Below are positions 25,694-47,883 of a DNA stretch of 64,000 bases, piece after piece (position 1 is the first letter of the stretch; each line of letters begins with the position of its first letter). Made by a program: the position numbers and the translations under genes. This DNA is from Sandaracinaceae bacterium (GTDB lineage: Bacteria; Myxococcota_A; Polyangia; Polyangiales; Sandaracinaceae): the NCBI GenBank assembly GCA_019694315.1, contig JAIBCE010000001.1, positions 1-64,000 of the forward strand, in the 5' to 3' direction. Under the pieces are notes generated by a model, which saw only the letters and a list, made by a program, of their open reading frames with translations, was not told the DNA's origin and did not search any database.

Positions 25694-27088
25694 TCAGAAC
25701 CACGCCGTGGCGCCGAGCGTCAGGGTGTCCTGCGACGTCCGATTCATGATCGCCTGTCCGGTCATCGCGTCGGTCGACACGGCGCCTCCGAAGAAGATCT
25801 CGCTCGCGGCGTGATCGTGGCGGTACTCGAGGCGGAAGAGGATGTGATCCACCGGCCTCACCTCGAACGTGAGTGTGCCCGACGACACCCACTGATCACC
25901 GCCGCTGGCGCGCGCGGGCCAGAAGATCGTGCTCGCGGCGCCCGACGCGTTGCGTGCTGCGCTCTCGAGGAAGACGTCGCCGCGCGCGGCCACGAAGAGC
26001 TCGGGGAGGATCCGGAATCGGGCATAGAGCGCCCCTGCGCCCCAGCTGCTCGTACCGAAGGCGTTGGGCTCGAAGCCCGCGTCCACGTGGAGGGCGAGTG
26101 AGAGCCACTCCGTGGCGGTCCAATTCGCATAAGCGTCGAACAGATGGCGCCAGGCCCGCCCCTCCGGCGCACCGGTCGGCCGCTCGACACCCGTGAAGTA
26201 GAGCGCGCTCACGGACAACGATGGATCGGTGTAGGTCACTCGCGCCACGAGCGACTTCTCGTCGTTGTTGTCGACGACGGTGTTCCAGCCGTTGAAGCCC
26301 GAGAGGCTCACGGTCCAGTGCTCGTCGAGCGGATACGAGAGGACGATCCCCGTGTGATAGAACGGACACCCGAAGAAGAGGTTCGAGCGCGACCAATTCC
26401 AATTGTCCCTCACCGCCATCGCCTCGATGCCGATGGGCGAGAGGAAGAGCCCCGCGGAGACGGTCAGTCCGTTACCGACGTCGATGCGGTATCCGACGTT
26501 CGCCTGCTGGACGAATTGCCACAGAGACCCGCTCGTCGCGCTCGCGCCGAGGGCGCCGACGAGCGAGGTCTCGGCCAGGTAGTAGGTCGCGCCGGTGTGA
26601 CCCACCTGGAGCGTGACGTTGCCGACCACGTTCTCCCAGTCCCACGTGACGCCGAGGGCGACGTTCTGGATGGTGAAGGTGTTGTGGCGGTTGTCGAAGC
26701 CGCGAAAGTTCGTGATGCCGTTCGACGGCTCGTTGACGTTGAAGGAGTAGTCCGTCTCGGCGTAGCCGAAGAAGGTATAGGGAGCTCTCTCCGCGGTCGG
26801 CTCCTCCGTGGTCGGCTCGTCCGAGACCGGCTCCCCCGTGGTCGGCTCCTCCGTGGTCGGCTCCCCCGTGGTCGGCTCCTCCGTGGTCGGCTCCCTCGTG
26901 GTCGGCTCCTCCGTGGTCGGCTCCCCCGTGGTCGGCTCCCCCGTGGTCGGCTCCCCCGTGGTCGGCTCCTCCGTGGGTGCCTGCTGCGAGTCCGCGCTCA
27001 CATCCGACTGTGCGCTCACGAGCGACGTGGGCGCCGCGCAGAGCAGCACCGTCCAGATTGCGAGCTTCGCTTGTTCGACCTTCGACAC
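25694..27088 (-). CDS. Outer-membrane beta-barrel (porin-like) with Glu-Pro-Thr repeat linker
   Basis: 464 aa from the GTG at 27088, selected because GGAGG lies 6 nt upstream; a TTG at 27103 is the alternative. Signal peptide (KLAIWTVLLCAAPTSLVSAQ), then a periplasmic linker of about 12 EPTTG/E pentapeptides coded by a 15-bp repeat, then a barrel from about residue 95: alternating strands such as YTFFGYAETDYSFN, LGVTWDWENVVGNVTLQVGH, VSAGLFLSPIGIEAM, ending in the aromatic terminal strand DTLTLGATAWF expected by the BAM complex. It resembles porin-like OmpL/BBP2-type barrels. It lies directly downstream of kdpE on the same strand with 129 nt between, and CTTGAYG repeats in the gap suggest KdpE control. 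Confidence 0.8.
   Translation of the reverse strand: MSKVEQAKLAIWTVLLCAAPTSLVSAQSDVSADSQQAPTEEPTTGEPTTGEPTTGEPTTEEPTTREPTTEEPTTGEPTTEEPTTGEPVSDEPTTEEPTAERAPYTFFGYAETDYSFNVNEPSNGITNFRGFDNRHNTFTIQNVALGVTWDWENVVGNVTLQVGHTGATYYLAETSLVGALGASATSGSLWQFVQQANVGYRIDVGNGLTVSAGLFLSPIGIEAMAVRDNWNWSRSNLFFGCPFYHTGIVLSYPLDEHWTVSLSGFNGWNTVVDNNDEKSLVARVTYTDPSLSVSALYFTGVERPTGAPEGRAWRHLFDAYANWTATEWLSLALHVDAGFEPNAFGTSSWGAGALYARFRILPELFVAARGDVFLESAARNASGAASTIFWPARASGGDQWVSSGTLTFEVRPVDHILFRLEYRHDHAASEIFFGGAVSTDAMTGQAIMNRTSQDTLTLGATAWF
26791..26977 (-). repeat. 15-bp tandem repeat coding the EPTTG/EPTTE linker
   Basis: About twelve 15-bp units, plus-strand consensus CTCC[T/C]CCGTGGTCGG, in frame in the barrel gene. 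Units differ mainly at one base, switching Gly and Glu codons, a sign of recent expansion. Confidence 0.9.
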
Positions 27089-27217: not shown

Positions 27218-27913
27218 TCACGCCTCGCGGAGCCGATAGCCCACGCCCGGCTCGGTGACGATCAGCTTCGGGCGCGAAGGATCGACCTCGATCTTCTTGC
27301 GCAGCTCCGCCATGTGCACGCGCACGTAGTGCGACTGCGATGCGTACGTGGGCCCCCAGACCTCCTTGAGGATGTGGCGGTGCGTGAGGACCTTGCCTGC
27401 GTGCTCCGCGAGCAAGACGAGCAGTCGATACTCGATGGGTGTGAGATGGAGCTCCTGCCCACCTCGTGCGACGAGGCGCTTGGTCCGATCGATCGAGACG
27501 TCCCCGAACGTGAGGACCTTCTCTTCGCCGCCGACCGCATCGCTCGCACGATGCCGCAAGGCAACGCGCATGCGCGCCAAGAGCTCGTTCGTGCCGAAGG
27601 GCTTGGTGAGGTAGTCGTCCGCGCCCGCATCGAGCGCGAGCACCTTGTCGTCCTCGCGCCCGCGGGCCGAGAGGACGATCACGGGGACGCGGCTCCACTC
27701 TCGCAGCATCGCGAGCAGCTCGAGCCCGTCGCCGTCGGGCAGGCCGAGATCGAGCAAGACGATCTCCGGATTGTGCGAGGTCGCCAGCATCTTGGCCTCG
27801 GCGACGCTCGAGGCCTCGATCATCCGGTAGCCGTGCGCGGTCAGCGCGGCGCGCACGAAGCGCCGCAGCTCCTTCTCGTCCTCGACGACGAGCACCAGCG
27901 CCCCCTCGCTCAC
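27218..27913 (-). CDS. kdpE: KdpE response regulator
   Basis: 231 aa. Receiver domain 1-120 with acidic pocket VVEDE, phospho-acceptor Asp55 in VLLDLGLPDGDG, and the Lys in LTKPFG; winged-helix OmpR/PhoB DNA-binding domain 130-228 (LTPIEYRLLVLLAEHAGKVLTH, VGYRLRE). Activates kdp transcription when phosphorylated by KdpD under K+ limitation or osmotic stress. Start is the GTG at 27913 overlapping the kdpD stop (GTGA), the typical kdpDE arrangement; the longer upstream frame is kdpD in another frame. Confidence 0.95.
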   Translation of the reverse strand: MSEGALVLVVEDEKELRRFVRAALTAHGYRMIEASSVAEAKMLATSHNPEIVLLDLGLPDGDGLELLAMLREWSRVPVIVLSARGREDDKVLALDAGADDYLTKPFGTNELLARMRVALRHRASDAVGGEEKVLTFGDVSIDRTKRLVARGGQELHLTPIEYRLLVLLAEHAGKVLTHRHILKEVWGPTYASQSHYVRVHMAELRKKIEVDPSRPKLIVTEPGVGYRLREA

Positions 27914-30594: not shown

Positions 30595-30601
30595 GTCGCG
30601 C

Positions 30602-31207
30602 TCACCGCCCCGGAGTGTCCCCCGCGGCTCCGCCGGGCGCACCCAGCGCGTCGTCGAGCGCGAGGTTGACCCGCAAGACGTTCACACGCGGCGCACCGAG
30701 GAGACCGAGCGTCCGACCTTCCACGTGCTCCTCGACGATCGCTCGCACACGCGCCTCGTCGACCGCGCGCGCACGCGCGATCCGCGGCACCTGGAGCAGC
30801 GCCGCCGCCGGGGATACGTGGGGATCGAGCCCGCTGCCGGACGCCGTGACGAGATCCACGGGGATGTCTCCCTCGACACCCGACGCACGGAGCGCCTCCA
30901 CGCGAGCCGCGATTGCCTCGCGCAGCGCGGGGTTCAGCGGCCCCTGATTGGAGCCCGTCGAGGCCGATGCGTCGTACGCGAACGCGCCGGTCGCCGACGG
31001 TCGACCCCAGAGATACTCGGGGCGCTCGAAGGACTGCCCGATCAGCGCGCTGCCGACGGTCTGCCCGTCGCGTGTGATCAAGCTGCCATTGGCCTGCGAC
31101 GGAAACACCCCTTGAGCGATTCCCGTCACGAGCAGGGGATATGCGACACCCGTCAGCAGCGTCAGACAGGCCAAGAGAACAAGTGCGGGACGAACGAGGG
31201 TGAGCAT
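30602..31207 (-). CDS. kdpC: KdpC subunit of the K+-transporting ATPase
   Basis: 201 aa. One N-terminal TM helix (RPALVLLACLTLLTGVAYPLLVTGIAQ), then the typical periplasmic domain: FPSQANGSLI, SALIGQSFERPEYLWGRPSAT, SGSGLDPHVSPAAALLQVPRIA and NVLRVNLALDDA. KdpC clamps the KdpA/KdpB complex. Between kdpB (15 nt) and kdpD (7 nt). Confidence 0.96.
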   Translation of the reverse strand: MLTLVRPALVLLACLTLLTGVAYPLLVTGIAQGVFPSQANGSLITRDGQTVGSALIGQSFERPEYLWGRPSATGAFAYDASASTGSNQGPLNPALREAIAARVEALRASGVEGDIPVDLVTASGSGLDPHVSPAAALLQVPRIARARAVDEARVRAIVEEHVEGRTLGLLGAPRVNVLRVNLALDDALGAPGGAAGDTPGR

Positions 31208-31222
31208 GGGTCCTCCTGCTCC

Positions 31223-33295
31223 TCAGCCGACGCCGAGCGCGGTGAGGAGGAGATCGATCGCCTTGATGCACGGAAATGGGAGGACCACGCCGCCCAGGCC
31301 GTACACGAGGAGGTTTCGCGAGAGCAGCGTGGCCGCCGGAGCGGGTCGATAGGGCAGTCCGCGGAGCGCGAGCGGAATCAACGCAACGATGATGAGCGCG
31401 TTGAAGATCACGGCCGACATGACGGCTGTCGTGGGAGAGTGCAGGCCCATCACGTCGAGCGCGCCCAGGGCCGGATACGTGGCGGCGAAGGCCGCGGGGA
31501 TGATCGCGAAGTACTTCGCCACGTCGTTCGCGATGGAGAACGTCGTGAGCGAGCCCCGCGTCATCAACATCTGCTTTCCGATCTCGACGATCGACAGAAG
31601 CTTCGTCGGGTTCGAGTCGAGGTCGACCATGTTCCCGGCTTCCTTGGCCGCCTGCGTCCCTGAGTTCATGGCGACGGCGACGTCGGCCTGCGCCAGCGCC
31701 GGGGCGTCGTTGGTGCCGTCCCCGGTCATCGCGACGAGGTGGCCCTTTCCCTGGTAGTCGCGGATCATCTTCAGCTTCGCCTCGGGCGTGGCCTCGGCGA
31801 GGAAGTCGTCGACACCCGCCTCGGCGGCGATCGCCGCAGCCGTCAGGGGATTGTCGCCCGTGATCATCACGGTCTTGATGCCGATACGCCTGAGCTCCGC
31901 GAACTTCTCCTGGATGCCACCCTTCACGATGTCCTTGAGCTTCACGACGCCGAGCACCTTCTTGCCGTCTGCGACGACGAGCGGCGTGGCGCCGCCCTTG
32001 GCGACGTCCTCGACGATGCGCTTCACCTCGGGCGGGAACGTTCCGCCCTCGGCCGAGACGAAGCGCTGAATGGCATCGGATGCGCCCTTTCGAATCCGCT
32101 TTCCGTCCAGATCGACGCCGCTCATGCGGGTCTGTGCCGTGAAGGGGACGAACGTCGCTCCGAGCTCGCGCACCTCGCGCGCGCGAATCTCGAACTTCTC
32201 CTTCGCCAGCACGACGATGCTCCTGCCCTCGGGCGTCTCGTCCGCGAGGGAGCTGAGCTGCGCCGCGTCGGCGAGCTCTCGCTCGGAGACCTGCGTCGCA
32301 GGCAAGAACGCGGTCGCTTGTCGGTTGCCGAGCGTGATCGTTCCCGTCTTGTCGAGGAGGAGCACGTCCACGTCGCCCGCTGCCTCGACGGCGCGACCGG
32401 AGGTCGCGAGCACGTTCGCCTGGATCATGCGGTCCATGCCCGCAATTCCGATCGCCGAGAGCAGGCCGCCGATCGTCGTCGGGATGAGACACACGAGCAG
32501 GGCGACGAGCACCGTGAGGCTCACCGGTGCGCCGGCGCCCGCGCTCTCGACCGCGTACTCCGAGAACGGTCGCAGCGTGACGGTGGCCAGCAGGAACACG
32601 ATCGTCAGCGCCGCGAGGAGGATGTCGAGGGCGATCTCGTTGGGGGTCTTGGTGCGCTTGGCGCCCTCGACCATGGAGATCATCCGATCGAGGAAGGTCT
32701 CGCCGGGATTGCTCGTGATGCGGATCACGAGCCAGTCCGAGAGCACGCGTGTGCCACCGGTGACGGCGCTCCGGTCGCCGCCGCTCTCCCGGATGACGGG
32801 CGCGCTCTCGCCAGTGATGGCGCTCTCGTCGACGGACGCCACGCCCTCGACGATCTCACCGTCACTGGGGATCAGCTGTCCCGCCTCCACGAGCACGAGG
32901 TCGTCCTTGCGGAGCTGCGACGAGGGGATCCGCTCGCTGGTCGCGTCGCGTCTCGGCTCGAGCAGGCGCACAGCAGCGACGTCCTTGCGCGCCTTGCGCA
33001 GCGTGTCGGCCTGCGCCTTGCCGCGGCCCTCGGCCATCGCCTCCGCGAAGTTCGCGAAGAGGACCGTGAACCACAGCCAGAGCGACACCGAGAGCACGAA
33101 CCACGGCGAGGCGTCACCCTCGCCGGTCACGAGCGCATGGACGAACAGCAGCGTCGTGAACGCGCTGCCGATCTCGACCACGAACATGACCGGGTTGCGG
33201 ACCATGCGTCGCGGATCGAGCTTGACGAACGAGTCGACGATCGCGGCGCGGACGATCGCGCTCTCGAACAACGGACGTGTCTGACTGGTGCTCAT
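31223..33295 (-). CDS. kdpB: KdpB, catalytic P-type ATPase subunit
   Basis: 690 aa. P-type ATPase of class IA. TGES actuator loop ([10 protein letters not shown]), phosphorylation motif [11 protein letters not shown], nucleotide-binding region with KGASDA, and hinge [33 protein letters not shown] helices pair with KdpA to couple ATP hydrolysis to K+ uptake. Starts 4 nt after the kdpA stop. Confidence 0.97.
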
Positions 33296-33299
33296 GGCC

Positions 33300-35054
33300 T
33301 CACCGCGAGACGAGGTGCGACAGCTCGAGGTGCTCGACGACGGGGCCGAGCGCGAGCGCGGGGATGAACGTGAGCGCGCCGACGAGCACGACCGTGCCCA
33401 CGAGCAGCGTCACGAACAGGGGCGTGTGCGTGGGCAAGGTGCCCGCGCTGACGGGGATGATCTTCTTCTTCGCGAGCGAGCCCGCGATCGCGACGACGGG
33501 CACGATCACCCACCAGCGCCCGATCCACATGCAGACGCCGATCGCGGTCGCGTAGAACGTGCCGCTCACGGTGATGCCTCCGAACGCCGAGCCGTTGTTG
33601 TTCGCGCCCGACGAGAACGCGTAGAGGATCTCGGAGAAGCCGTGGATACTCGGGTTTCCGAGCGTCGACGTGCCAGCGTCGGTGGCGCAGGCGATCGCCG
33701 TCCCGAGCAGCACGGCGGCCGAAGGAAGCAAGATGACCAGTGAGGCCATCTTCATCTCGTAGGCCTCGATCTTCTTGCCGAGGTACTCGGGCGTACGCCC
33801 AACCATGAGACCGGCGATGAAGACTGCGATGATCGCGTACATCAACATGCCATAGAGCCCCGAGCCGACTCCCCCGAAGACGATCTCGCCGAGCTGCATC
33901 AGCCACATCGGCGCGAGGCCGCCGAGGGGCATGAACGAGTCGTGCATGGCGTTGACGGAGCCGTTGGAGGCGGCCGTGGTCGCCACTGCCCAGATGGCGC
34001 TCTCGGTGGGCCCGAATCGCACCTCCTTGCCCTCCATGTTCCCGCCCGCCGAGAGCAGCGTGGCAGTCTGGTCGACACCGATCCCGTCGAGCATCGGATT
34101 GCCACCCTGCTCGACGGCGATGGTGAGGACCGCGAGAGGCACGAAGATCGCGAGCATCGCGGCGAGGATCGCCACGCCCTGACGTCGGTCCTTCACGATC
34201 TCGCCGAAGGTGAAGCAGAGGGCCGCTGGAATCAGGAGGATCGCGACGCACTCGAGGAAGTTCGAGAGCGGGGTCGCGTTCTCGAACGGGTGAGCCGAGT
34301 TCACGTTGAAGAAGCCGCCACCGTTGGTGCCCAGTTGCTTGATCGCGATCTGCGAGGCCGCGGGGCCGAGCGCGAGAACCTGATCGGTGACGGACGAGCC
34401 ATCGGCGCTTGCCGTCGTCGCCTCGACGAGGTGCACGGTGGCGTAGGCCCCGAAGGTCTGCACGACACCTTGCGACACGAGCAGGACCGCGAGCACGAGC
34501 GAGAGCGGCAGGAGCACGTAGAGGGTGCCTCGGACGAGATCCATCCAGAAGCTCCCGAGCCCCGGCGCGTTCTTGCGGGTGAAGCCGCGAAGGAGCGCCA
34601 CGAGCACGGCCATGCCCGTCGCGGCCGACACGAAGTTCTGGACGGTCAGCGCCAGCATCTGCGTGAGGTACGAGAGCGTCGTCTCCCCTCCGTATGCCTG
34701 CCAGTTCGTGTTCGACGCGAAGCTCACTGCCGTGTTGAAGGACACCTCGGGGCTCACGGCCCCGAGGCCAGCCGGGTTGAGCGGGAGCACCCCCTGCACG
34801 CGCTGGAGGAGATAGACGCACAGGAGACCGGCGACATTGAAGACGATCACGGCCATCGCATAGCGAGGCCACGGCATCTCCTCGTCCTCGCGCACACCGG
34901 CCATGCGGTAGAGGAGGCGCTCGAAGGGCGCGAGCCAGCGCAGAACGGGGCTCGTGCCGTCATACACACGCGCCATGTAGAGACCGAGCGGATAGCCCAG
35001 TCCCACGATGACGACGAGGTAGAGGGCGAGCAGCAACACCGAGGACAAGGTCAT
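33300..35054 (-). CDS. kdpA: KdpA, K+-binding/translocating subunit
   Basis: 584 aa, slightly longer than the 557-aa E. coli protein, with about ten TM segments. K+ selectivity-filter regions are visible as [37 protein letters not shown], and the later [13 protein letters not shown] and [10 protein letters not shown] segments. Together with KdpB, KdpC and KdpF it forms the high-affinity K+ pump. Its ATG overlaps the kdpF stop (ATGA). Confidence 0.97.
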
Positions 35055-35822: not shown

Positions 35823-38800
35823 TCAGCTACAGCCGAGCGACGCCCCGCAATTCAGGCACTTGTAGCAGGCGCCGTTGCGCACCGTGATGTGTCCGCAGCC
35901 GTCGCACATGGGGGCATCACCCATCATGTTCTCGAGCTGCTGATCCAGCGCGCTCTTGACCTTGGTCGCCGCAGGCTCCTCGCGCCCCGCGAACGCGAGC
36001 TCCACCTGCGCAGGCGCGACGTAGTCGTCGGGCGGGAGCGACGGCGTCGACTGACCGGGAAGTCGCGCCACGGCCATCGCGTCCGTCGGGCTCGTAAGCT
36101 CCGCCTGCTCTTCCTCCGGCGGCACCTGCGCGAAGTCGTAGCGCTTGAGGTACTCGACCCCGAGCACGCGGAAGATGTAGTCGACGAGCGACGTGGCGAA
36201 CTTGATGTTCGGGTGTCCCTCGACGATCCCGCTCGGCTCGAACCGCGTGAACGTGAACTGCTCGACGTACGCCGCCAGCGGCACGCCGTGCTGGAGCCCC
36301 ATCGAGACCGCGATCGCGAAGCAATTCATGAGGCTCCGGAACGCAGCGCCCTCCTTGTGCATGTCGACGAAGATCTCGCCCAGCGAGCCATCCTCGTAGT
36401 CGCCCGTGCGGAGGAAGACCTTGTGTCCCCCGATGCGCGCCTCCTGCGTGAAGCCGCGGCGTCGCTTGGGCAGACGGTGGCGAACGGTGGTCGGCGGCGT
36501 GAGCCCGTCGACCTGCTTCTTGCCACCCATCCGATGAGCCAGAGGCGCCTCGACGATGGGCGCCATCTCCGCGCCTGCCTTGCTCGACTTCTCGATGACC
36601 GCCTCGGCCTTCTTGGCCTCGGTCTTGACCTCTTCCTCGTCGGTGCTCGAGGTGTTGAGCGGCTGGCTGGCCTTGCAGCCGTCGCGGTAGAGCGCGATCG
36701 CCTTGAGGCCGAGCTTCCAACCCTCGTGGTAGATCTCCGCGACGTCGTCGACGTTGGCCTCGTTGGGGAGGTTCACCGTCTTGGAGATCGCGCCCGAGAG
36801 GAAGGGCTGCGCGGCCGCCATCATCCGCACGTGCGAGATGGGCTTGAGATAGCGCTTGCCGTGCTTGCCACAGCGATTGGCGCAGTCGAACACCGGATAG
36901 TGCTCGGCCTTGAGGTGCGGCGCGCCCTCGATCGTCATGCGACCGATGACCACGTCGTTGAGCTCCTCGCACTGCTTCTGCGTGAGGCCGAAGTGCTTGA
37001 GCAGGTTGAAGCCCGGCTTGTTGTACTGCTCGGGCTTGAGGCCGAGGCGCTCGAACGCGTGGCTGCCGATCACCCACGGAGACAAGGCCTGGCTCGCGTC
37101 GAACACCCCCGGCAGGGCCTTCTCCGCCTTGCTGAGCTCGCTCTCGGTGAGCCCCTTCTCGATGAGCATCGCGCGGGTGAGATACGGCGCGCCCGTGAAC
37201 GTGTTGGTGCCGCTCACGTACGCGACGATGTCGGCCACCTGCGCGGGGTTGTAGCCGAGGTGCGCGAGCGCCTCCGGCACCGACTGGTTCACGATCTTGA
37301 AGTAGCCGCCGCCCGCGAGCTTCTTGAACTTCACGAGCGCGAAGTCGGGCTCGATGCCCGTCGTGTCGCAGTCCATGAGGAGGCCGATCGTGCCCGTGGG
37401 CGCGAGCACCGTCGCCTGCGCGTTGCGGTAGCCGTACTGCTCGCCGAGCTTCACTGCGAGATCCCAGTCCTCGCGCGCCGCCGAGAGCACGTCGGTGGGG
37501 ACGCCCGAGTCGCCCTTGCCCACCGTCCCCGGGAATCCGGGGCGATCGATGGAGTACGCCGCGTCACGGTGCTTGGTCATCACGCGCAACATCGGCTGTC
37601 GGTTGCGCATGTAGCCGGGGAAAGGTCCCTTGCTGGCCGCCATCTCCGCCGACACGCGGTACGCGTGGCCCGTGAGGATCGCCGTGAGCGCACCGCACCA
37701 CGCGCGACCTGCGTCGGAGTCGTAGGGGATGCCAAGCCGCATGAGGAGCGTGCCGAGGTTCGCGTAGCCGAGGCCGAGCGGCCGGTAGTCGTGGCTGTTC
37801 TTCGCGATCTTCTTCGTCGGATAGCTCGAGAGATCGACGAGGACCTCCTGCGCGAGGAACATCACGCGGATCGCGTGGCGGTAGCCCTCGAGATCGAAGT
37901 TGCCCGACTCGTCGAGGAACTTCACGAGGTTGATCGACGACAGATTGCAGGCCGTGTCGTCGAGGAACATGTACTCGCTGCAGGGATTGCTGGCGTTGAT
38001 GCGCGCGGTGTTCGCGCACGTGTGCCACGCGTTGATCGTGGAGTCGTACTGCACGCCCGGGTCGGCGCATGCCCACGCGGCCTCGGCGATCTTCTTCCAG
38101 AGATCGCGCGCGCGGTGCGTGTCGACGACGTGCTCCTTGTTGGTGCGCATCGTCGTCTGCCACTCACCATCTTGCTCGACTGCGCGCATGAACTCGTCGG
38201 AGATGCGCACCGAGTTGTTCGAGTTCTGGCCGCTGACGGTGTGATAGGCCTCGCCGTTGAAGTCGCTCGCGTAGCCCGCCGAGATCAGCGCGCGCGCCTT
38301 CTTCTCCTCACGGACCTTCCACTCGATGAAGTCGACGATCTCGGGGTGGTCCATGTCGAGACAGACCATCTTCGCCGCGCGCCGCGTCGTGCCGCCCGAC
38401 TTGGTCGCGCCGGCGGCGCGATCGAAGACCTCGAGGAAGCTCATGAGGCCGGAGCTCGTGCCGCCACCCGCGAGCTTCTCCTGACGCCCGCGGAGCATCG
38501 AGAAGTTCGTGCCCGTGCCCGAGCCGTACTTGAAGAGGCGCGCCTCGGTCTTGACGAGATCGTAGATGCTCATCAGGTCGTCTTCGACCGACTGGATGAA
38601 GCACGCGGAGCACTGCGGCCGCTCGTAGGCGTTGGCCGTCTCCATGCACTCTTCGATCTTCGCGTCCCAGGCCCAGCTGCCACCCTGGCCCTCGATGCCG
38701 TAGCGGTGCCAGAGGCCGAGGTTGAACCACACCGGCGAGTTGAACGCGGCGCGCTGCGTCACGAGGAGGTACGCGAGCTCGGCCTCGAACGCGTCGGCGT

Positions 38801-39185
38801 CGTCCCTCGACGCGAAGTAACCGCCCTGCTGGTCGGCCGCCTCGCGGATGGTGCGCGCCACGCGGTGCACCATCTGGCGCACGCTCGTCTCGCTCTTCTT
38901 CGCGTCACCCTTCACCCCCGCCTTGCGGAAGTACTTCGACACCGCGATGTCGGTCGCGAGCTGCGACCACGACTCCGGGATCTCCGCGCCCCGCATCTCG
39001 AACACGATCGAGCCGTCGGGGTTCGTGATGACGCTGTCGCGCAGCTCGTACGTGATCTCGTCGAGCGGATCCGTGCCCGGCTGCGAGAAGCGACGCTCGA
39101 AGCGCACACCCCCCGTCGGGTCGGATCCCTTGGTCTGGCTCGGGGCCGCAGGGGCCACTTTTCGGAAATCAACGGACACAGCCAT
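35823..39185 (-). CDS. nrdJ: Adenosylcobalamin-dependent (class II) ribonucleotide reductase
   Basis: 1120 aa, a long class II enzyme. Reduces ribonucleotides to deoxyribonucleotides using adenosylcobalamin. Visible are the substrate-site region [22 protein letters not shown] with the first redox Cys, the loop [11 protein letters not shown], the active-site [20 protein letters not shown] and [22 protein letters not shown]-terminal extension ends in a four-Cys zinc ribbon (CDGCGH...CYKCLNCG) with redox Cys. No NrdR-like repressor or second RNR gene is near. The ATG at 39185 follows a GGGAGGA Shine-Dalgarno. Upstream lies about 1 kb without a convincing gene. It would let the cell make dNTPs with or without oxygen. 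Confidence 0.95.
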
Positions 39186-40209
39186 CCTCCCGGAACGACG
39201 CCAGCGGCGCCGCTCCTGCCCGAGCGGGGCCTACCAACGCGTGGACCAACGAGCTCATCGTCCGCCCTCCGCCCGGCATGGGCGGAGACGATGAGGAGAT
39301 TCGCAAGCAAGAGAGAACGTCGAACGATTCAGAGCATTTGAGCTGAGATTCTCGGTTTCCCAGCGGACGACGAGACACCCGCGCCTCCCACGGAACGTCC
39401 GCAGGCTCGCCCCCGGCCCCCGACTCGGTCGAGACCGATCGGGACCGGTCGGTCCGCGCACGGCGGACCCGAACTGCCCCCAGGGCCTCCGGTACCGGGA
39501 GGCCACCAACACCTTTGCGCCACAGAAGCTCAACCAACGAGCCTCGGCCGACCGCTCGCGAAACCACCCCCGGACCAGGGGGTGTGGAGGGTCGGGCGAG
39601 GAGCCCCAACGGGTGGGGGAGATGCCGGTGGTAAAGAAAGGCGCGGACGGAATCAAGGGGCGAGGTTGGCGCATGCTCACGTCGGCCGAGAGGGCTCGGA
39701 AACCCTCTTTCAATTCGTCCGCCTACCGGTGCGGAGCAGCCGCTCCTACATCGGCACCCGCATGGCGCAGCGCGTCGTGTCATGGCCAGGCAAGTCACGT
39801 CATGAACAGTACGATGGGTAGGGCAGGTGCCTCAAAAAACCCGCAACCGATGGGGGTCGGTCGTAGACCGTCCGGGTGTGCCCCCGCGGCTGGGCCGGCA
39901 CGGACGTCCGACGGATCCGTCGCGTGAGCCGATCTTCGATTCCACGAACAAGTTCCCGATTCGACTGGAATTCTACGGCGGCTCTCCGCACGGCGAGCGC
40001 CGCGTGCCGAGGCCCCGCTGCTGGTGGCGGAGCGCTTTGACCTGCTTTGAGGTGCGAGGCGACCGAGCGTCGGGCAGCCTTCCCCCCGTTGCGAGCACCC
40101 GCCCGCTCGGGGTAGAAGGCGGCGCCTTCGGAGCCGTTGTCACGCGCGATCCGGGGTGAGCGACGAGTACGGCCGGCCGGTCCGGCCCCCCAACCTGAGG
40201 AGACGAGAG
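39186..40209. other. About 1 kb without a convincing protein gene; long nrdJ leader and a possible RNA
   Basis: The nearest genes are divergent (nrdJ minus, AIM24 genes plus). Short open frames exist on both strands but lack a good RBS, signal peptide or recognisable domain. The stretch is rich in perfect hairpins: GGCCTCC/GGAGGCC around GGTACCG at 39484-39504; GGTCCGC/GCGGACC near 39448; AGAGGG/CCCTCT near 39690; and a terminator-like element at 39834-39863. A cobalamin riboswitch was looked for ahead of nrdJ and its conserved boxes were not found by eye. Confidence 0.6.
39834..39863 (-). terminator. Intrinsic terminator on the minus strand inside the gene-free stretch
   Basis: On the minus strand CGACCGA (39863-39857), loop CCCCCA, TCGGTTG (39850-39844), then CGGG and TTTTTT (39839-39834). 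It is one of the few T6 tracts in the window, and no protein gene precedes it on this strand, so an untranslated transcript starting within about 39870-40150 may end here. Confidence 0.5.
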
Positions 40210-40977
40210 ATGCAACAGCAGATGGGACAGATGCCCTATGCGCAGACGGCCGGCGCGGTCGGCGGCGGCGCGGCGGGGATCCCACACGAGATCACGCACG
40301 GCCCCTCGTTCGCGATGTTGCGCGTCGATCTCGCGCCTGGCCAGACGCTGGTGACCGAGGCGGGCTCGATGGTCGCGCGCAGCTCGCACCTCACGATGGA
40401 CGTGAAGATGAACGCAGGGAAGAAGGCGGGCTTCTTCTCGATGCTCTTCAACATCTTCATCGCCTTCGTCCGCAAGTTCATCGGCGGCGAGACGTTCTTC
40501 GTCAATCACTTCCACGGCACGCAGCCGGGCAGCGTCTGGATCGCGCCGGGCATGGCGGGTGAGGTGACCTATCGCCGCATCAACCCGGGCGACAAGCTCA
40601 TCCTCTCGAGCGGCGCCTACCTCGCGTCGGTCGGCGACATCGACGTGAAGATGAAGTTCGGCGGCCTCAAGTCGATGCTGGCGAAGGAAGGCGCCTTCAT
40701 GCTCGAGGTCTCGGGCAACGGCGACCTCTGGTTCAACAGCTACGGCGGCACGACCGCGATCCCGATCAACGGGCCCTTCATGATCGACAATGGCCACCTC
40801 GTTGGATACGAGGGCCAGCTCACGATGAACATCCGCAGTGCGGGCGGCGGCGCGCTCGGCTTCCTGGCCGGCGGCGAGGGCCTCGTCTGCGAGTTCAACG
40901 GACAGGGCACCGTCTACATCCAGTCCCGCAACGTCAACTCGCTGGTCAGCTGGCTGACCCCCCAGCTGCCCGCCTGA
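40210..40977 (+). CDS. AIM24/TIGR00266-family protein (copy 1)
   Basis: 255 aa from the ATG at 40210, which has a GAGGAG Shine-Dalgarno; a GTG at 40156 would add 18 residues. After a Gln/Gly-rich N-terminus comes the all-beta AIM24 fold: GPSFAMLRVDLAPGQTLVTEAGSMVARS, GGETFFVNHF, VGDIDVKMKFGGLKS, and the C-terminal GEGLVCEFNGQGTVYIQSRN. Yeast AIM24 is a mitochondrial inner-membrane protein affecting respiratory complexes; bacterial roles are unknown. It contains an extra hydrophobic segment (KAGFFSMLFNIFIAFVRKFI) not seen in copies 3 and 4. First of four tandem paralogues. Confidence 0.9.
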   Translation: MQQQMGQMPYAQTAGAVGGGAAGIPHEITHGPSFAMLRVDLAPGQTLVTEAGSMVARSSHLTMDVKMNAGKKAGFFSMLFNIFIAFVRKFIGGETFFVNHFHGTQPGSVWIAPGMAGEVTYRRINPGDKLILSSGAYLASVGDIDVKMKFGGLKSMLAKEGAFMLEVSGNGDLWFNSYGGTTAIPINGPFMIDNGHLVGYEGQLTMNIRSAGGGALGFLAGGEGLVCEFNGQGTVYIQSRNVNSLVSWLTPQLPA

Positions 40978-41008
40978 GCGCGCGCACGAATCGACGGAGA
41001 CAAGCACC

Positions 41009-41707
41009 ATGCAGATCGACATCGGATACCGTCCCGCGCACTCGATGGCGCGTGTCCAGCTCCAGCACGGAGAAGCCATCCTCGCCGAGAGCGGCGCCAT
41101 GGTCGGCATGAGCACGAACGTGCAGATGCAGACTGGCATGCAGAACAAGGGCGGCGGCCTCCTCGGCGGCCTCCTCGGCGGTCTCAAGCGCGCCCTCGCG
41201 GGTGAGAGCTGGTTCCGCAACACGTTCACGGCCCAGAACGGCCCGGGAGAGGTCCTGCTCGCGCACGCGCTCTGCGGCGACATGCAGGTCCTCGACATGA
41301 CCCCGCAGGGCTACTACCTGACGAGCGGCAGCTTCATCGCGTCGAGCCCCACGGTGGACATCAACACCAAGCTCGGCGGAATGAAGAGCTTCTTCTCTGG
41401 CGAGGGCATGTTCGTCATGCACGCGACCTCGCAGCAGCCGGGGCAGCTCATCATCGGCGCCTTCGGCGGCGTGCAGCAGCTCAACTGCGACGGCAACCTC
41501 GTGATCGACACGGGTCACCTCGTCGCGTGGGACGCCTCGCTCACCTACAAGGTCGGCAAGAGCGGCGGCGGCTGGATCGCCTCGTTCCTCTCCGGCGAAG
41601 GCCTCGTCTGCCACTTCCAGGGCCAGGGCCGCATCTGGATCCAGACCCGCAATCCGGTGGAGTACGGCCGCACCGTCGGCGCCCTCCTCCCGCCCCGTCA
41701 GGGCTGA
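41009..41707 (+). CDS. AIM24/TIGR00266-family protein (copy 2)
   Basis: 232 aa, 31 nt after copy 1. Family signature: MQIDIGYRPAHSMARVQL, ILAESGAMVGMS, a Gly-rich segment GGLLGGLLGGLKRALAGES, YYLTSGSFIASSPTVDINTK, GEGLVCHFQGQGRIWIQTRNP. Predicted cytoplasmic or membrane-associated beta-sandwich; no catalytic motif is known for the family. It is the most divergent from copies 3 and 4 after copy 1, implying old duplications. Confidence 0.9.
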   Translation: MQIDIGYRPAHSMARVQLQHGEAILAESGAMVGMSTNVQMQTGMQNKGGGLLGGLLGGLKRALAGESWFRNTFTAQNGPGEVLLAHALCGDMQVLDMTPQGYYLTSGSFIASSPTVDINTKLGGMKSFFSGEGMFVMHATSQQPGQLIIGAFGGVQQLNCDGNLVIDTGHLVAWDASLTYKVGKSGGGWIASFLSGEGLVCHFQGQGRIWIQTRNPVEYGRTVGALLPPRQG

Positions 41708-41734
41708 TTCCTCGAGAGAGAAGGAGACACGAAC

Positions 41735-42418
41735 ATGCAATACCAACTCCTCGAGAAGCCCGACTTCACGATGGTCCAGATCGGGTTCGATGCGCAGGGC
41801 GAGCAGATGATCTGCGAGTCCGGCGCGATGGTCGCCCGCGACAGCTCCATCGACATGAAGACCTCGCTCCAGGGCGGCTTCCTTGCGGCGATGAAGCGCA
41901 AGGCGCTCGGTGGCGAGAGCCTCTTCCAGAACACGTTCACGGCGACGCAGCCCGGCCAGCGCCTCTACTTCGCGCCGGGCCCCGAGGGCGACGTCGAGGT
42001 CGTGAACATGGACGGCTACACGCCGATCTTCCTCAACTCGGGTGCGTACCTCGGTGCGCCGCCGAGCGTGAACCTCGACACGAAGTGGGGCGGCACCAAG
42101 GGCTTCTTCTCCGGAGCAGGCATGTTCCTGCTCAAGTGCACCGGCACGGGCCCCCTCTTCTTCTGCACGTACGGCGGCATCCACGCGGTGGACGTGGGCC
42201 CCGGCGGCTACATCTGCGACACGGGCCACGTCGTCGCGTTCACGGGCGGCCTCAACTACAACGTGACGCGCCTCGGCGGTCTCGGTGGCTTGCTCTTCTC
42301 GGGTGAAGGCCTCGTCTGCAACTTCCAGGGACAGGGCCGACTCTGGATCTCGACGCGCAACGCGCGTTCGCTCGTCAGCTTCGTCAATCCCTATCGCCGC
42401 ATCCAGCCGCGGGGATGA
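41735..42418 (+). CDS. AIM24/TIGR00266-family protein (copy 3)
   Basis: 227 aa, with an AAGGAG Shine-Dalgarno ahead of the ATG. Key segments MQYQLLEKPDFTMVQIGFDA, ESGAMVARDSSIDMKTSLQGG, GGESLFQNTFTAT, GFFSGAGMFLLK, GEGLVCNFQGQGRLWISTRN. By eye about four of five residues match copy 4, so these two arose by a recent duplication. Part of the four-gene array. Confidence 0.92.
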   Translation: MQYQLLEKPDFTMVQIGFDAQGEQMICESGAMVARDSSIDMKTSLQGGFLAAMKRKALGGESLFQNTFTATQPGQRLYFAPGPEGDVEVVNMDGYTPIFLNSGAYLGAPPSVNLDTKWGGTKGFFSGAGMFLLKCTGTGPLFFCTYGGIHAVDVGPGGYICDTGHVVAFTGGLNYNVTRLGGLGGLLFSGEGLVCNFQGQGRLWISTRNARSLVSFVNPYRRIQPRG

Positions 42419-42526
42419 GGGCCGTCCCAGGATCGAGCGAGTGAGCTCGGAGAACGCCCTCGCCGTCGCAAGACGCGCGGGGGCGTGCTCGTTTCAGCGC
42501 GACCTACGCAGAAGGAGAATCCGACC

Positions 42527-43216
42527 ATGCAGCACCAGATCCTCGAGAAGCCCGACTTCTCCATGGTGCAGATCCAGTTCGATGCGCCTGGCGAGCAGAT
42601 GATCTGCGAGTCGCAGGCGATGGTCGCGCGCGACAGCGCGATCCAGATGAAGACCAGCCTCCAGGGCGGGATGATGTCCGCGCTCAAGCGCGCGGCTCTC
42701 GGCGGAGAGAGCCTGTTCCAGAACACGTTCACGGCGAGCGCTCCCGGACAGCGGCTCTACATCGCGCCTGCGCCCGAGGGCGACCTCGAGGTGGTGAACA
42801 TGGATGGCTACACGCCCATCATGCTCTCGAGCGGCGCCTACCTCGGCGCACCTCCGAGCGTGACGCTCGACACCAAGTGGGGCGGTGCGAAGGGCTTCTT
42901 CTCGGGAGCGGGCATGTTCCTGCTCAAGGCCACGGGCACGGGACCGCTCTTCTTCAGCACCTACGGCGGCATCCACGCGGTCGATGTCGGGGCCGCGGGC
43001 TACATCTGCGACACGAGCACGATCGTCGCGTTCACCGGCGGCCTCAACTACACCGTGACCAAGCTCGGCGGCCTGGGCGGACTGCTGTTCTCGGGCGAAG
43101 GCCTCGTCTGCCGCTTCCAGGGGCAAGGACGCCTGTGGATCTCCACCCGCAGCGCGCGGAGCCTCGTGAGCTTCGTGAACCCGTATCGCCCCATCAAGCC
43201 GAGGAACAACGGCTGA
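42527..43216 (+). CDS. AIM24/TIGR00266-family protein (copy 4)
   Basis: 229 aa from the ATG at 42527 (AAGGAG Shine-Dalgarno; aligns with copy 3), not the open frame from 42485. Near-duplicate of copy 3: MQHQILEKPDFSMVQIQFDA, MVARDSAIQMKTSLQGG, GFFSGAGMFLLKATG, GEGLVCRFQGQGRLWISTRS. A 108-nt gap separates it from copy 3, and the nucleotidase-barrel gene starts 7 nt after its stop, linking the array to that gene. Confidence 0.92.
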   Translation: MQHQILEKPDFSMVQIQFDAPGEQMICESQAMVARDSAIQMKTSLQGGMMSALKRAALGGESLFQNTFTASAPGQRLYIAPAPEGDLEVVNMDGYTPIMLSSGAYLGAPPSVTLDTKWGGAKGFFSGAGMFLLKATGTGPLFFSTYGGIHAVDVGAAGYICDTSTIVAFTGGLNYTVTKLGGLGGLLFSGEGLVCRFQGQGRLWISTRSARSLVSFVNPYRPIKPRNNG

Positions 43217-43223
43217 TCGGCCC

Positions 43224-45587
43224 ATGGAGGGGCGGCTCGTCGTCACGCTCGCGACGCTCGCGACGCTCGCGCTCGGCGTGCAGAACGCCCACGCGCAGCG
43301 CGACGTGCGCATGCGCGTGATCGCGACGTCCGACGTGGACGGCCACCTCGGCATCCCGGTCTGCGACGACACACGCGACGTCGTCCCCCACCCGCGCGGC
43401 CTCTACACGTATGCGCTCGTGCGCCAGGCCTCGGCGCCCGATCGGCCGCTCGTCGTGGACGCGGGCGGCCTCCTCGGACAGGGCGGCGTGGTGCGCTTCG
43501 CCGCGGAGCACGACGTGAACGGGCTCGCCGAGCTGGTGCTCTCCCTCGGCTACGACGGTCTGGCCTTCGGCGCGAGCGAGATCGCCACGCCGCGCACGCG
43601 GATGATCCCGCTCGCCGAGGCGCTCGGCAGCCGCGGCGTGCCGTTCATCTCGTCGAACCTGCGCTGCCGCGGCCCTCGCACGAGACCGCTGTGCGACGCG
43701 ATCGTCGACGCGTCCGATCCGCCGACGATCGTGCATGCGGGAGAGCTCGACGTGGCGCTGCTCGCGATGACGGAGCCCGAGGCCCTCGCGCACCTCGAGC
43801 CCGAGCTGACGACGGGACTCTCGCTCGAGCCCATCGACGAGCGTCTCGCTGCGATCGTGCGAGACGTTCGCGATCGTGTGGGGCTCGTCGTGCTGCTGCT
43901 CGACGCGGATCAGGACGACGCCCTCGATCTGCTCGAGTCGATCGCGCCCGAGGCTCGGCCCGATCTCGTGATCCTCTCGGATCCGCAAGCGCGTCTGCTC
44001 TTCTCGCGACCCACCGGGGTCACGCCAGCGATCGTGACGCCGCCCCCCTCGGACGCGGTGGAGGTCGTGATCCGCGAGGATCGCGAGGTGCGCGTGGGCA
44101 TCTACCAGATGATCGCGCAGCCCCTCGCGCAGCGTGGGCTGAGCGTGGGCGAGCCCGTGCTGCGATTCCTCGAGCGCATCGGTCCTTCGTACTGCGACGT
44201 GTGGGGCCAGAGCCTTCCCGGAGGTCGCCTCGAGCGCGCGATCGATCGCGCAGGGCTGACGGAGCTGGTCGCGGAGCTCTTGCGCGAGTCGGTGGAGGCC
44301 GACGTCGCGGTGCTCAATCCCTCGCTCTTCGACGCGACGTTCCAGCCTGCGCACGAGGACGAGCTCACGGCGAGCGATCTCTACGTGGCGCTCGAGCACG
44401 ACGAGCTCCTCTATCGAGCCGATGTGCCGCGCGAGTGGCTCGTCGAGCTGGCAGGCCATCGAGCCACGCGTTCGCTCGCGACTCCAGGGCTCACGGGCAC
44501 CGGCGGCGAGACGCGGGTGCGATCGCGAGCGCTCGTGTCGCGCGCGAGCTATCGCGTGGTGACGACTCGGTATCTCGCGCGAGGAGGTCAGTCGGCGCTG
44601 CCCGAGCTGCCGAGCGGCCTCGAGTGGTCGCCCGTGCGGCTCTCGGAGCTGCGTCGGTGGCGCACGAGCGATGACGACGGGCTCGATCTCGATCCGACGC
44701 TGAGCGTGCGCGAGATCGCCCTGCGAGCGCTCTCCGTGCGCGATGGCCATGATCCGCGCGACGCTCGGCCCTCTCCGAGCGAGGCCCCCGAGTGGGTGAT
44801 CCAGGGCTTCGTCGATGGCTCGTTCTCGGGCTCGAGCGTCGACAATCCCGCGGGATACCAGGCCGCGCAGCTCAATCGCTCCTCGACGATCGCGCTCGGC
44901 ACCGAGGTGAACCTGCGCGCCGACGCGACGGCGCCGTCATGGACCTGGGAGAACCTGGGGATCTTCCGCTATCGCACGCAGTGGACGGAGGGCGGGACGA
45001 CGATGGGTGTGCGCGCGCCCGGCGCGTTCACCGAGGCCGTCGATCAGATCCAGCTGCGCTCGACGGGGAGCTATCGCGGCTTGCGCGCACAGCCGAGCGC
45101 GAGCGAGCCGTACCTGCCCGATCCGTACGCCGAGATCTTCGTCGAGACCGAGCTCACCCAGCCCGCGTCACGCATGTTCCACTGGCTGCTCTTCCGCCCG
45201 ACGCTCGGCGCGCGATTCCCGCTCACGACCGACCTCGAGCTCAAGCTGCAGACCGGTCTCGAGGCGCAGCTGCTCCAGTCGAACAACGAGGCTGTCGTCG
45301 GCGTCGGCGCGGTGCTCACGCTGCGCCCATGGGATCTCCTTCGGATGGGCGAGCGTCACGTGCAGATCCAGGGGCTCGTCGACTTCTTCTATTCGGACCC
45401 CGGAGACACGAATCGGTGGCAGCTCCGCGGCAGCTTCGACGCGTCGCTCGATCTCGCGGGTCCGCTCGCGCTCACCTTCGGCGTGCGCGCGTTTCTCCAG
45501 CAAGAGCACGGCGGCGATCTGGGCTTCGCGCTCGACGCGACAGCAGGGTTTCGCATCGGCACTCTCACACGCGTCGTGGGGCCGTGA
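43224..45587 (+). CDS. Degenerate 5'-nucleotidase-like protein fused to a C-terminal beta-barrel
   Basis: 787 aa. Signal peptide (MEGRLVVTLATLATLALGVQNAHAQ). Residues about 25-270 resemble the metallophosphoesterase domain of UshA/SoxB-type 5'-nucleotidases (RMRVIATSDVDGHLG; VVDAGGLLGQG; LGYDGLAFGASE), but the usual GNHE/GNHD motif is replaced by GASE and no late GHxH motif is seen. Residues about 290-480 resemble the nucleotidase C-terminal substrate domain (SDLYVALEHDELLYRADVP, YRVVTTRYLARGG). From about residue 540 amphipathic strands (VIQGFVDGSFSGSS..., GDLGFALDATAGFRIGTLTRV) suggest a 10-12-stranded outer-membrane barrel. Probably non-catalytic, surface-anchored. Starts 7 nt after AIM24 copy 4. 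Confidence 0.65.
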   Translation: MEGRLVVTLATLATLALGVQNAHAQRDVRMRVIATSDVDGHLGIPVCDDTRDVVPHPRGLYTYALVRQASAPDRPLVVDAGGLLGQGGVVRFAAEHDVNGLAELVLSLGYDGLAFGASEIATPRTRMIPLAEALGSRGVPFISSNLRCRGPRTRPLCDAIVDASDPPTIVHAGELDVALLAMTEPEALAHLEPELTTGLSLEPIDERLAAIVRDVRDRVGLVVLLLDADQDDALDLLESIAPEARPDLVILSDPQARLLFSRPTGVTPAIVTPPPSDAVEVVIREDREVRVGIYQMIAQPLAQRGLSVGEPVLRFLERIGPSYCDVWGQSLPGGRLERAIDRAGLTELVAELLRESVEADVAVLNPSLFDATFQPAHEDELTASDLYVALEHDELLYRADVPREWLVELAGHRATRSLATPGLTGTGGETRVRSRALVSRASYRVVTTRYLARGGQSALPELPSGLEWSPVRLSELRRWRTSDDDGLDLDPTLSVREIALRALSVRDGHDPRDARPSPSEAPEWVIQGFVDGSFSGSSVDNPAGYQAAQLNRSSTIALGTEVNLRADATAPSWTWENLGIFRYRTQWTEGGTTMGVRAPGAFTEAVDQIQLRSTGSYRGLRAQPSASEPYLPDPYAEIFVETELTQPASRMFHWLLFRPTLGARFPLTTDLELKLQTGLEAQLLQSNNEAVVGVGAVLTLRPWDLLRMGERHVQIQGLVDFFYSDPGDTNRWQLRGSFDASLDLAGPLALTFGVRAFLQQEHGGDLGFALDATAGFRIGTLTRVVGP

Positions 45588-45669: not shown

Positions 45670-47349
45670 ATGCACGACCTTCACACCGTGTTCTCGGCGG
45701 AGGTGATCGAGGGCACGACGCTGACGCGCAGGACGCTCGGGAGGATCCGCACCGCAGGCGCGATCGCGGCCTACGATCCACTGACCACCGACGAGGCGTT
45801 GCCGTTCGTGACGCGCGTTCCACCGGGCTGCTGGCCCGTGGAGGTCCTCCTCGGTCAGACGCGCGGGGACACGCGTGTGCAGCTCGCGCGCATCGTCTTC
45901 GAAGACACCGTGCCCGTGCGCTTCGAGCTCGCGCTCGTCGAGGGCCAGGACGTTCGGACGCTCGGGCCCGGAGAGACGTTCGGGTACGGCGTGGACACGG
46001 GCGTGGGCTGCTTCGCCGGCCCCGGCCTCCAGGGTGTGGACGCAGAGTGGGTGTTGAGAGCGCTCCGCGAGCACGAGGAGGCCTCGTGGACGTATGCGGT
46101 GAGCGACGCCCTCGTGGCGTTCTCGTCGGGCTACGGCGATGGCGTCTACAGCTCCTATGTCGGCTACGACGCGGAGGGACGTGTGGTCTCACTGACCACC
46201 GACTTCTCCATCTTCGCGCTGGCGCTCCCCACGCTGACGCCCGACATGGCCTATCGGGAGGCCCGCGCGGCCGAGCTCTTCGACGCGATGATGAAGGGGC
46301 TCGCTCGGCTGGGTGGACCGGCCCACGGGCAGGCATGGACCGAGGCGATGGAGCTGGCGACACTGCGCGACGCCGCGGCGCACCTCGTGCCGCGCTTCGT
46401 CGACGCGATCACGCAGCGGGCGCCCGACTGTGATCCGGACGATCCGTCGTCGCTCCCGAGCCTGGCGGTCGATCTGCTGATCGCGACACTCGGGAAGATC
46501 CTCGGACGCGCCGAGGCGGACCATCGCTTCGCCGCCGAGAGCGCGCGGCTCGACGAGGACACGCTCGTGCGCGTCCTCTCGAAGCGCCATCGACCCTCGA
46601 CGCGAGAGGATCCGCGTGGTCGCGAGGCGCTCGTCGAGGCCGTGCTCGCGCGCGTCGACGAGGCGAGCCCCGCCCTGCTCGGCCACGCGCTCCGACTGCT
46701 CGACAGCGAGGGAGCGGCGCTCCACCCGGCGCTGCCGACGCTCGCCACGCGCGCGCTCCGCGTGGCGATCGCCGATCCTTCCGAGCTCATGGCCGACGCG
46801 CTCGTGCGCGCCGCGCTCGAGCCCTTCACGAGGGAGCGCTGGAACGGCGAGGAGGCGCTCGTGCACGAGGCGCCGGAGGCCCTCGTCGCCCTCGCGGAGG
46901 AGAGCCTCGCGATCTTCGAGGAGGACGACGTCCAGCAATGTCTCGCCGGCATGCTGATCGAGCAGGGCAGAGGCGACAGGGTGGCCCTGCACGCCGAGCG
47001 CACGGGCCGCCTCGGCCCGCTCCTGCGCCTCGCGAGCGACCCGGTGCACGGAGCGATGGCACGCGCCTGTCTCCACGCGATCGCCTGTGATCCAGGGCGA
47101 TCTCACGACACACGGTTCCAGGCGATCACGCGACTCGAGGCGCCGAAGGAGCAGTGTGTGCTCCTTCGTTCCCTCGGCCTCGACGGCTTCGAGTCGGCCG
47201 CGATCCAGCTCGGCTACCTCGACGCGACGGCGCACGCCGAGGTGCTCGAGGCGCTCGACGAGCTCGCGAAGAGAGCCCCGACCAAGTCGCTCCGGCGGAG
47301 TGCGGTCGACACGGCGCGGCGGATCCGACGCCACGCGGCAGTTGCGTGA
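45670..47349 (+). CDS. DUF4241-domain protein with alpha-helical C-terminal region
   Basis: 559 aa from the ATG at 45670. Residues about 10-200 match the DUF4241 pattern: PVEVLLGQTRGDTRVQLARIVF, FGYGVDTGVGCFAG, FSSGYGDGVYSSYVGYDAEGR and SLTTDF. The rest (200-559) is helical, rich in Ala/Leu/Glu, with HEAT-like spacing (EALVEAVLARVDEASPALLGHALRLLD, QAITRLEAPKEQCVLL). No signal peptide, so probably cytoplasmic. Family function is unknown. The long fused helical part is unusual for DUF4241. Possibly the start of a unit with the DUF1877 gene 72 nt downstream. Confidence 0.75.
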   Translation: MHDLHTVFSAEVIEGTTLTRRTLGRIRTAGAIAAYDPLTTDEALPFVTRVPPGCWPVEVLLGQTRGDTRVQLARIVFEDTVPVRFELALVEGQDVRTLGPGETFGYGVDTGVGCFAGPGLQGVDAEWVLRALREHEEASWTYAVSDALVAFSSGYGDGVYSSYVGYDAEGRVVSLTTDFSIFALALPTLTPDMAYREARAAELFDAMMKGLARLGGPAHGQAWTEAMELATLRDAAAHLVPRFVDAITQRAPDCDPDDPSSLPSLAVDLLIATLGKILGRAEADHRFAAESARLDEDTLVRVLSKRHRPSTREDPRGREALVEAVLARVDEASPALLGHALRLLDSEGAALHPALPTLATRALRVAIADPSELMADALVRAALEPFTRERWNGEEALVHEAPEALVALAEESLAIFEEDDVQQCLAGMLIEQGRGDRVALHAERTGRLGPLLRLASDPVHGAMARACLHAIACDPGRSHDTRFQAITRLEAPKEQCVLLRSLGLDGFESAAIQLGYLDATAHAEVLEALDELAKRAPTKSLRRSAVDTARRIRRHAAVA

Positions 47350-47421
47350 GATCACGCCACGGACATGGTCACGATTGTCGTCGAGCACCCGCAAAGGCAC
47401 ATTGGACCGCGAGGTGATGTC

Positions 47422-47883
47422 ATGGGTGTGGTCGCAAGCCTGATCGAGCTGTCTCCTGCGGAGATCGAGGCGTGCCGCAGCGACCCTGCAGCGCTGCAGC
47501 GTTTCCTGAGCGACGCGGCGCGGCCGCGCTGCGATCTCGACAAGGCCTGGGCTGGCCTGCACTTCCTCTTCGTCCACGGCGACTACGAATTCGAAGCGGC
47601 GATGCTCGACGACGAGCGCGCCAGGAAGATGGGCGGCTACGACGTGCTCTTCGTCTCGCCGCGCGACATGCCGATCCTGGCAGACAACTTCGAGTGGGAA
47701 GGCCGCGCTGCGGACCTCGCCAAGTACTACGACCCCGCGAGGATGGCGGGCATCTACCCCGACATCTGGGCTCGCGAGGGAGACAAGGCCCTCGAGTACC
47801 TGCTGTCGTTCGTCCCTGCGCTGCGACGGTTCACCGATGGAGCCGCCAGTCGAGGCCACGGGGCGGTCGTGGTCATCGGGTGA
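47422..47883 (+). CDS. DUF1877 (YfbM-like) family protein
   Basis: 153 aa from the ATG at 47422, which aligns with the start of E. coli YfbM-like proteins (MGVVASLIELSPAEIEAC); the upstream frame adds only filler. Conserved features: LDKAWAGLHFLF, VLFVSPRDMPILADNF, LAKYYDPARMAGIYPDIW and LEYLLSFVPALRRF. Function unknown in the family; small cytoplasmic protein. Follows the DUF4241 gene on the same strand and converges with the MFS gene. Confidence 0.85.
   Translation: MGVVASLIELSPAEIEACRSDPAALQRFLSDAARPRCDLDKAWAGLHFLFVHGDYEFEAAMLDDERARKMGGYDVLFVSPRDMPILADNFEWEGRAADLAKYYDPARMAGIYPDIWAREGDKALEYLLSFVPALRRFTDGAASRGHGAVVVIG

Follow-up and report, generated by a model that had tools for sequence, protein, structure and literature searches.

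This analysis concerns four AIM24-family genes and the gene that follows them, at positions 40210-45587 of a window of 64,000 nucleotides (nt), the whole stretch analysed, from contig JAIBCE010000001.1 of a Sandaracinaceae bacterium (GenBank assembly GCA_019694315.1). The four genes, which we call AIM24-A, AIM24-B, AIM24-C1 and AIM24-C2, stand head to tail, and the fifth gene, here called NTB, encodes a 787-residue product with a Sec-type signal peptide recognised by eye. An earlier note made from the DNA letters had described this layout, and it proved exact both for the coordinates of the AIM24 genes and for the secreted protein starting 7 nt past the stop codon of the fourth. Compared with PF01987, the four proteins matched over nearly the full length with E-values of 3e-53 to 2e-58 and 181-198 bits (cut-off 25.7), and they scored 180-210 bits with TIGR00266 (curated cut-off 96.6); by whole-domain score over the curated cut-off, all four belong to the family. 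No further AIM24 genes were found in the genome of the window. Ribosome-binding sites are clear in all four genes (in order GAGGAG, GGAG, AAGGAG and AAGGAG), and none is clear at the NTB start. The gaps inside the cassette are mostly shorter than 40 nt, down to -1 nt. Gene starts were those of a simple codon-usage caller, and the E-values and trees given below are sequence evidence only. A terminator scan returned a single candidate site, on the minus strand at 39844-39863, which did no better than shuffled sequence, and the window has no Rfam match to a riboswitch or other known RNA.

The gene-neighbourhood search for AIM24 in Myxococcota that had been suggested in the earlier note was run on 57 relatives first, with 15-19 kb read around most tandem sets, and was then widened to the phylum and the order. 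The compared genomes, labelled here with G (their loci with L and their families with f), are mostly draft assemblies. Nearly all tandem AIM24 sets have three genes, and these triads hold the classes A, B and C in a fixed order, both in Myxococcota and on one plasmid each of Flammeovirga and Aureibacter (Bacteroidota). In a tree of 110 AIM24 proteins labelled by operon position only, the first, second and third genes fell into three clades, with 4 label changes compared to a shuffled mean of 51.5, and the clades span Myxococcota and Bacteroidota, including the trios of the two plasmids. A more careful tree included six solo AIM24 proteins from archaea, Actinomycetota, Cyanobacteriota, Bacillota and Betaproteobacteria, and recovered single clades for C (98/93), A (97/88) and, less firmly, B (74/95); the dispersed genes of genome G056 and the C2 gene had been grouped by class beforehand, which makes this tree partly circular. 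In G056, the B, A and C genes lie on three separate contigs (L090, L091 and L092), one per class, and in the 110-protein tree, where all of them carried the default label of first gene, one still fell in each clade.

Fifteen held-out loci, outside the class profiles, showed A-B-C in order, with full genes assigned by margins of 60-180 bits; at two further loci (G160 and G197) the gene caller had missed genes. A profile scan of public genomes gave 8 loci. In the order, genomes come close to having either no AIM24 copy or three: exactly three are present in 49 of the 60 AIM24-positive genomes, four in five genomes, two in one genome (at a contig end) and one, of a separate 245-bit type, in the remaining five. 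A search for class-diagnostic residues passed two columns only, the proteins being too diverged for these to be useful. At the window locus, one gene of each clade is found in the same order and on the same strand, with C present twice. By the trees, the window genes thus represent three ancient paralogue classes, A and B with a single gene and C with a duplicated one. Because each class is a clade, the order is fixed, the sets hold three copies and G056 has one of each, the three classes are, on this genomic evidence, not interchangeable. No published description of an AIM24 trio was found in the literature searched, with most subscription journals outside its reach.

C1 and C2 are 84.6% identical in amino acids and 81.2% in nucleotides. 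With both copies of the sister species G001 they form one four-row clade (support 99) in the 110-protein tree, C2 being on the longer stem. G001 has a C1 and a C2 of its own, with 96% and 93% identity to those in the window, and the duplication is older than the split between the two species. Between them, C2 gave a nonsynonymous divergence (dN) of 0.05 and a synonymous divergence (dS) of 0.59, and with a dN/dS of about 0.09 it is, by this measure, under purifying selection. C2 has a Thr at the position of His165, which is kept in 85% of the other C proteins. The loss of this residue, the longer stem and the purifying selection favour diversification over dosage, and suggest that C2 is a diverging alternative subunit and not a dosage copy. 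The earlier note had seen two nearly identical genes (copies 3 and 4) and two old ones, and had proposed selection for dose or diversification; the near-identity was not borne out, the evidence leans towards diversification and away from dose, and the three-class structure had been overlooked.

AIM24-A begins with a Gln/Pro/Ala-rich N-terminal tail, followed by the AIM24 domain. The hydrophobic insert within it (Table 1) has a grand average of hydropathy (GRAVY) of 0.96-1.40 in three relatives, compared to 1.46 in the window copy, and its loop exceeds the matching loop of B and C in length. AIM24-B is 99% identical to that of G001, with a dN of 0.011.

Table 1. Coordinates of the AIM24-NTB cassette, of segments within its products and of the neighbouring nrdJ gene
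Feature	Position	Strand	Basis
AIM24-A, first trio member	40210-40977	+	PF01987 E 3e-53, TIGR00266; clade A; strong ribosome-binding site GAGGAG
Hydrophobic 18-residue insert AGFFSMLFNIFIAFVRKF within AIM24-A, candidate membrane-docking segment	40426-40479	+	GRAVY 1.46
AIM24-B, second trio member	41009-41707	+	PF01987 E 2e-58; clade B
AIM24-C1, third trio member, canonical copy	41735-42418	+	PF01987 E 2e-57; clade C
AIM24-C2, genus-specific tandem duplicate of C, diverged	42527-43216	+	Clade with C1; His165 to Thr at 43019-43021
NTB, secreted predicted pseudo-5'-nucleotidase / presumed outer-membrane-barrel fusion, 787 residues	43224-45587	+	Predicted fold, motif table
NTB nucleotidase-like domains, residues 27-515	43302-44768	+	VIA Z; catalytic motifs degenerate
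NTB 12 predicted beta strands, residues 523-785, presumed outer-membrane barrel	44790-45578	+	AlphaFold2 model
NrdJ, B12-dependent class II ribonucleotide reductase, divergent neighbour	35823-39185	-	Pfam of L104 orthologue (PF02867, PF08471); synteny

The structure of the NTB product was predicted with AlphaFold2 from nine sequences (mean predicted local distance difference test score of 80 over the protein), and the model has a nucleotidase-like part followed by 12 long C-terminal strands. Compared with known structures, the model reached a VIA Z of up to 24.1 (3ivd/3ive) and of 22.6 to UshA (1ho5), and the Z values of 20-24 over about 420 residues indicate a predicted 5'-nucleotidase fold; a weak match to the nucleotidase C-terminal domain was also found. 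The whole-model fold search was filled by nucleotidase matches and carries no information on barrel similarity. The metal-binding and catalytic motifs (DxH, GD, GNHE, HxG and GHTH) are degenerate in nearly all 15 NTB relatives, with the later His motifs missing across the 15-member family. In place of GNHE the window NTB has GASE, and the family GASE or GxND, the GNHEF of UshA becoming G-x-x-[DE]-[LI]. A few relatives retain single motif elements, such as DTHG in G025, and four cysteines are conserved in the family. The nucleotidase part of NTB is thus predicted to be a pseudo-nucleotidase, and the C-terminal strands of the model are presumed to form an outer-membrane barrel. The window's own genome also has another NTB paralogue, unlinked and 47% identical (G000, contig C408; L089:9698-12043, +).

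An NTB homologue was found directly after the trio at 16 loci in three families, with eight in f1 (G000-G004 and G006-G008), seven in f4 (G025, G043, G053, G149, G150, G153 and G159) and one in f8 (G016, across a contig break). In G159, the AIM24 trio is followed by a tandem pair of NTB genes (L168:1880-7073, -). The gap between C and NTB is often -1 to 20 nt, and the flanks of the linked loci, NrdJ excepted, mostly differ, so that the cassette persists amid changing surroundings. In the 57-genome sample, trios are present in 22 genomes, NTB in 24 and the two together in 13, compared to 9 expected by chance (our own count); as this is not far above chance, the signal is adjacency and not co-occurrence. 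In the NTB tree, linked copies are the common state, and an unlinked paralogue arises inside f1. These results indicate that the link, followed through gene neighbourhoods, is conserved but clade-limited, and because of this limit, and because each partner also occurs alone, it cannot be a general clue to AIM24 function. The nucleotidase-like domain without GNHE claimed by the earlier note agrees with the predicted structure, in which the apparent beta-barrel of the note corresponds to the 12 presumed barrel strands. The absence of conserved co-occurrence in relatives that the note had named as refuting did not arise, and its hope of a general clue from the barrel protein was not supported.

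The locus is best explained as one operon that encodes an obligate three-subunit AIM24 complex together with a clade-specific envelope protein, and we give this a probability of about 0.55. The A, B and C proteins most likely make one mixed A:B:C complex, because their stoichiometry and order are fixed, the classes are deeply separated and the full set was kept after dispersal. In its simplest form the complex would be a ring, with each class in one of the three positions of a homotrimeric AIM24 ring, and the hydrophobic insert of A may dock it to the inner membrane on the cytoplasmic side. In this genus, the C position would be taken by either C1 or the diverged C2. By analogy, the trio most likely acts as a scaffold for membrane-protein upkeep, since relatives of AIM24 in other organisms are located on membranes, where they stabilise membrane complexes. 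NTB would be made from the same transcript and exported, and its dead nucleotidase fold, carried by an outer-membrane barrel, would probably bind a ligand. Perhaps the link between AIM24 and NTB, if functional, consists of co-expression in envelope upkeep and not of simple contact.

Several observations weigh against this model. The promoter scan found no promoter-like site at the locus. In other families, the trio commonly stands without NTB, and in f5 and f23 there is NTB but no AIM24 trio. Direct contact between the two is unlikely, because NTB is exported and the AIM24 proteins have no signal peptides. We take AIM24 proteins to form trimeric rings of TRAP-like domains, as in their SCOP entry; here only the six chains of 1yox agree with this. 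The window locus has no M48 peptidase, a recurrent neighbour of trios elsewhere (see below), its upstream neighbour being NrdJ, and a universal M48 partner was rejected for this lineage, as the full-length subfamily is patchy and was not found in the window's genome at E 1e-15. Finally, much of the same genomic pattern would be expected from three separate, co-regulated homotrimers encoded in one operon.

This last explanation, in which A, B and C are separate homo-oligomers with different jobs and share an operon for co-regulation only, fits the deep separation of the clades and the solo AIM24 genes of many other organisms, which must act without partners. However, independent functions should be lost independently, and almost no genome loses one class yet keeps the others; G056 retains one of each even after dispersal. 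We therefore consider it unlikely, while still giving it some weight. Hardly any weight can be given to the idea that the copies are a plain dosage array of interchangeable proteins. Four copies do stand head to tail, and C1 and C2 are still 85% identical, but the classes are orthologous and in fixed order in two phyla, and C2 departs from most other C proteins at a conserved His while purifying selection acts on it. The trees led us to reject such an array for A, B and C.

For the NTB link, a neutral origin comes not far short of an even chance: the gene would have originated next to the trio in the common ancestor of these families and simply remained there, the two having no function in common. 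The restriction to three families, the occurrence of NTB and trio alone, the unlinked NTB paralogues, the NTB start without a clear ribosome-binding site and a much faster evolution of NTB (dN 0.17 versus 0.01-0.05) are all consistent with this. Against it, the cassette has stayed intact while most flanks except NrdJ were exchanged, and the gaps between C and NTB, often below 20 nt, fit selection for co-expression. NTB might also be an active surface or periplasmic nucleotidase that passes nucleosides through its own barrel, a fusion like UshA and Tsx, tied to NrdJ by nucleotide metabolism. The UshA-like predicted fold, the weak C-terminal domain match and the retention of NrdJ next door in 13 loci speak for such an enzyme, but the degenerate motifs of the 15-member family and the missing later His motifs make it very improbable.

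Outside the cassette, 13 of the loci read, from four families, have NrdJ upstream of the trio and divergent from it; this count includes G016, with another gene in between, and G025, with an N-terminal fragment at a contig end recognised by eye. Next to other trios there is an M48 peptidase, anchored in the membrane and with its HExxH motif intact, an association that agrees with a role in membrane upkeep. The peptidase lies upstream on the same strand in Flammeovirga, Aureibacter, G017, G099 and G111 (L079, L145, L149, L157 and L158), and divergent upstream in G160, G163, G188, G199 and G203 (L163, L165, L173, L174 and L176). As the M48 proteins of the two arrangements differ in length, they may have joined trios on more than one occasion. 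A ter-type stress operon was rejected, as the window's genome has no match to PF02342 (TerD). Elsewhere, on a plasmid of Aromatoleum aromaticum, a solo AIM24 gene is flanked by TerD genes (L181:2956-3660, +), in the setting known from ter operons. Downstream of NTB, at 45670-47883 (+), genes for a DUF4241 protein and a DUF1877 protein are not kept with the cassette in relatives. Also in the window are a probable kdp potassium-transport operon with sensor and regulator at 27218-35054 (-), KdpA alone being confirmed by Pfam, and open reading frames for strongly repetitive protein with LPTGM- and EPTTG-type repeats at 11910-13052 (+) and 25694-27088 (-).

The ordered, non-interchangeable trio gives a concrete prediction for AIM24 proteins, namely a defined A:B:C complex. 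NTB and the M48 peptidase are two recurrent partner genes and thus handles on AIM24 function, and the dispersed full set of G056 and the extra, diverged C2 are natural experiments on the proposed complex.

The trio resembles the known AIM24/TIGR00266 family (PA3696, 1yox; SpyM3_0169, 1pg6) in its near-full-length model matches, and a profile built from it matched both solved structures (1pg6 at 1.8e-44 and 1yox at 1.9e-32). However, the members met outside triads are solo, whereas the window has a fixed-order set of three ancient classes. Yeast Aim24 is a TRAP-like, beta-rich inner-membrane protein with no predicted transmembrane segment, found in a complex of ~400 kDa and partnering MICOS (PMC3975624); it shares the domain family with the window proteins, but yeast has one gene, in a eukaryotic organelle. 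Among other relatives, plant PAWH acts with Hrd1 (PMC6677890) and fungal EOP-1 is recruited to the plasma membrane (PMC13075794). It would be a long shot to see in an A/B/C ring and an outer-membrane NTB an envelope-organising system, the bacterial counterpart of the mitochondrial Aim24-MICOS contact site, with the M48 peptidase of other loci being Oma1-like. According to a passage in PMC5822837, citing Anantharaman et al. 2012, an AIM24 gene is part of conserved bacterial ter (tellurite/stress) operons; there a single AIM24 goes with TerD, unlike the window trio, whose genome gave no TerD match. UshA-type 5'-nucleotidases (1ush, 1ho5, 3ivd) share the predicted fold of NTB residues 27-515, and NTB differs from them by the lost catalytic motifs and by the fused C-terminal region with its 12 predicted barrel strands. 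The M48-linked triads of Flammeovirga, Aureibacter and other Myxococcota have the same A-B-C order and clades as the window, with the M48 peptidase in place of NTB.

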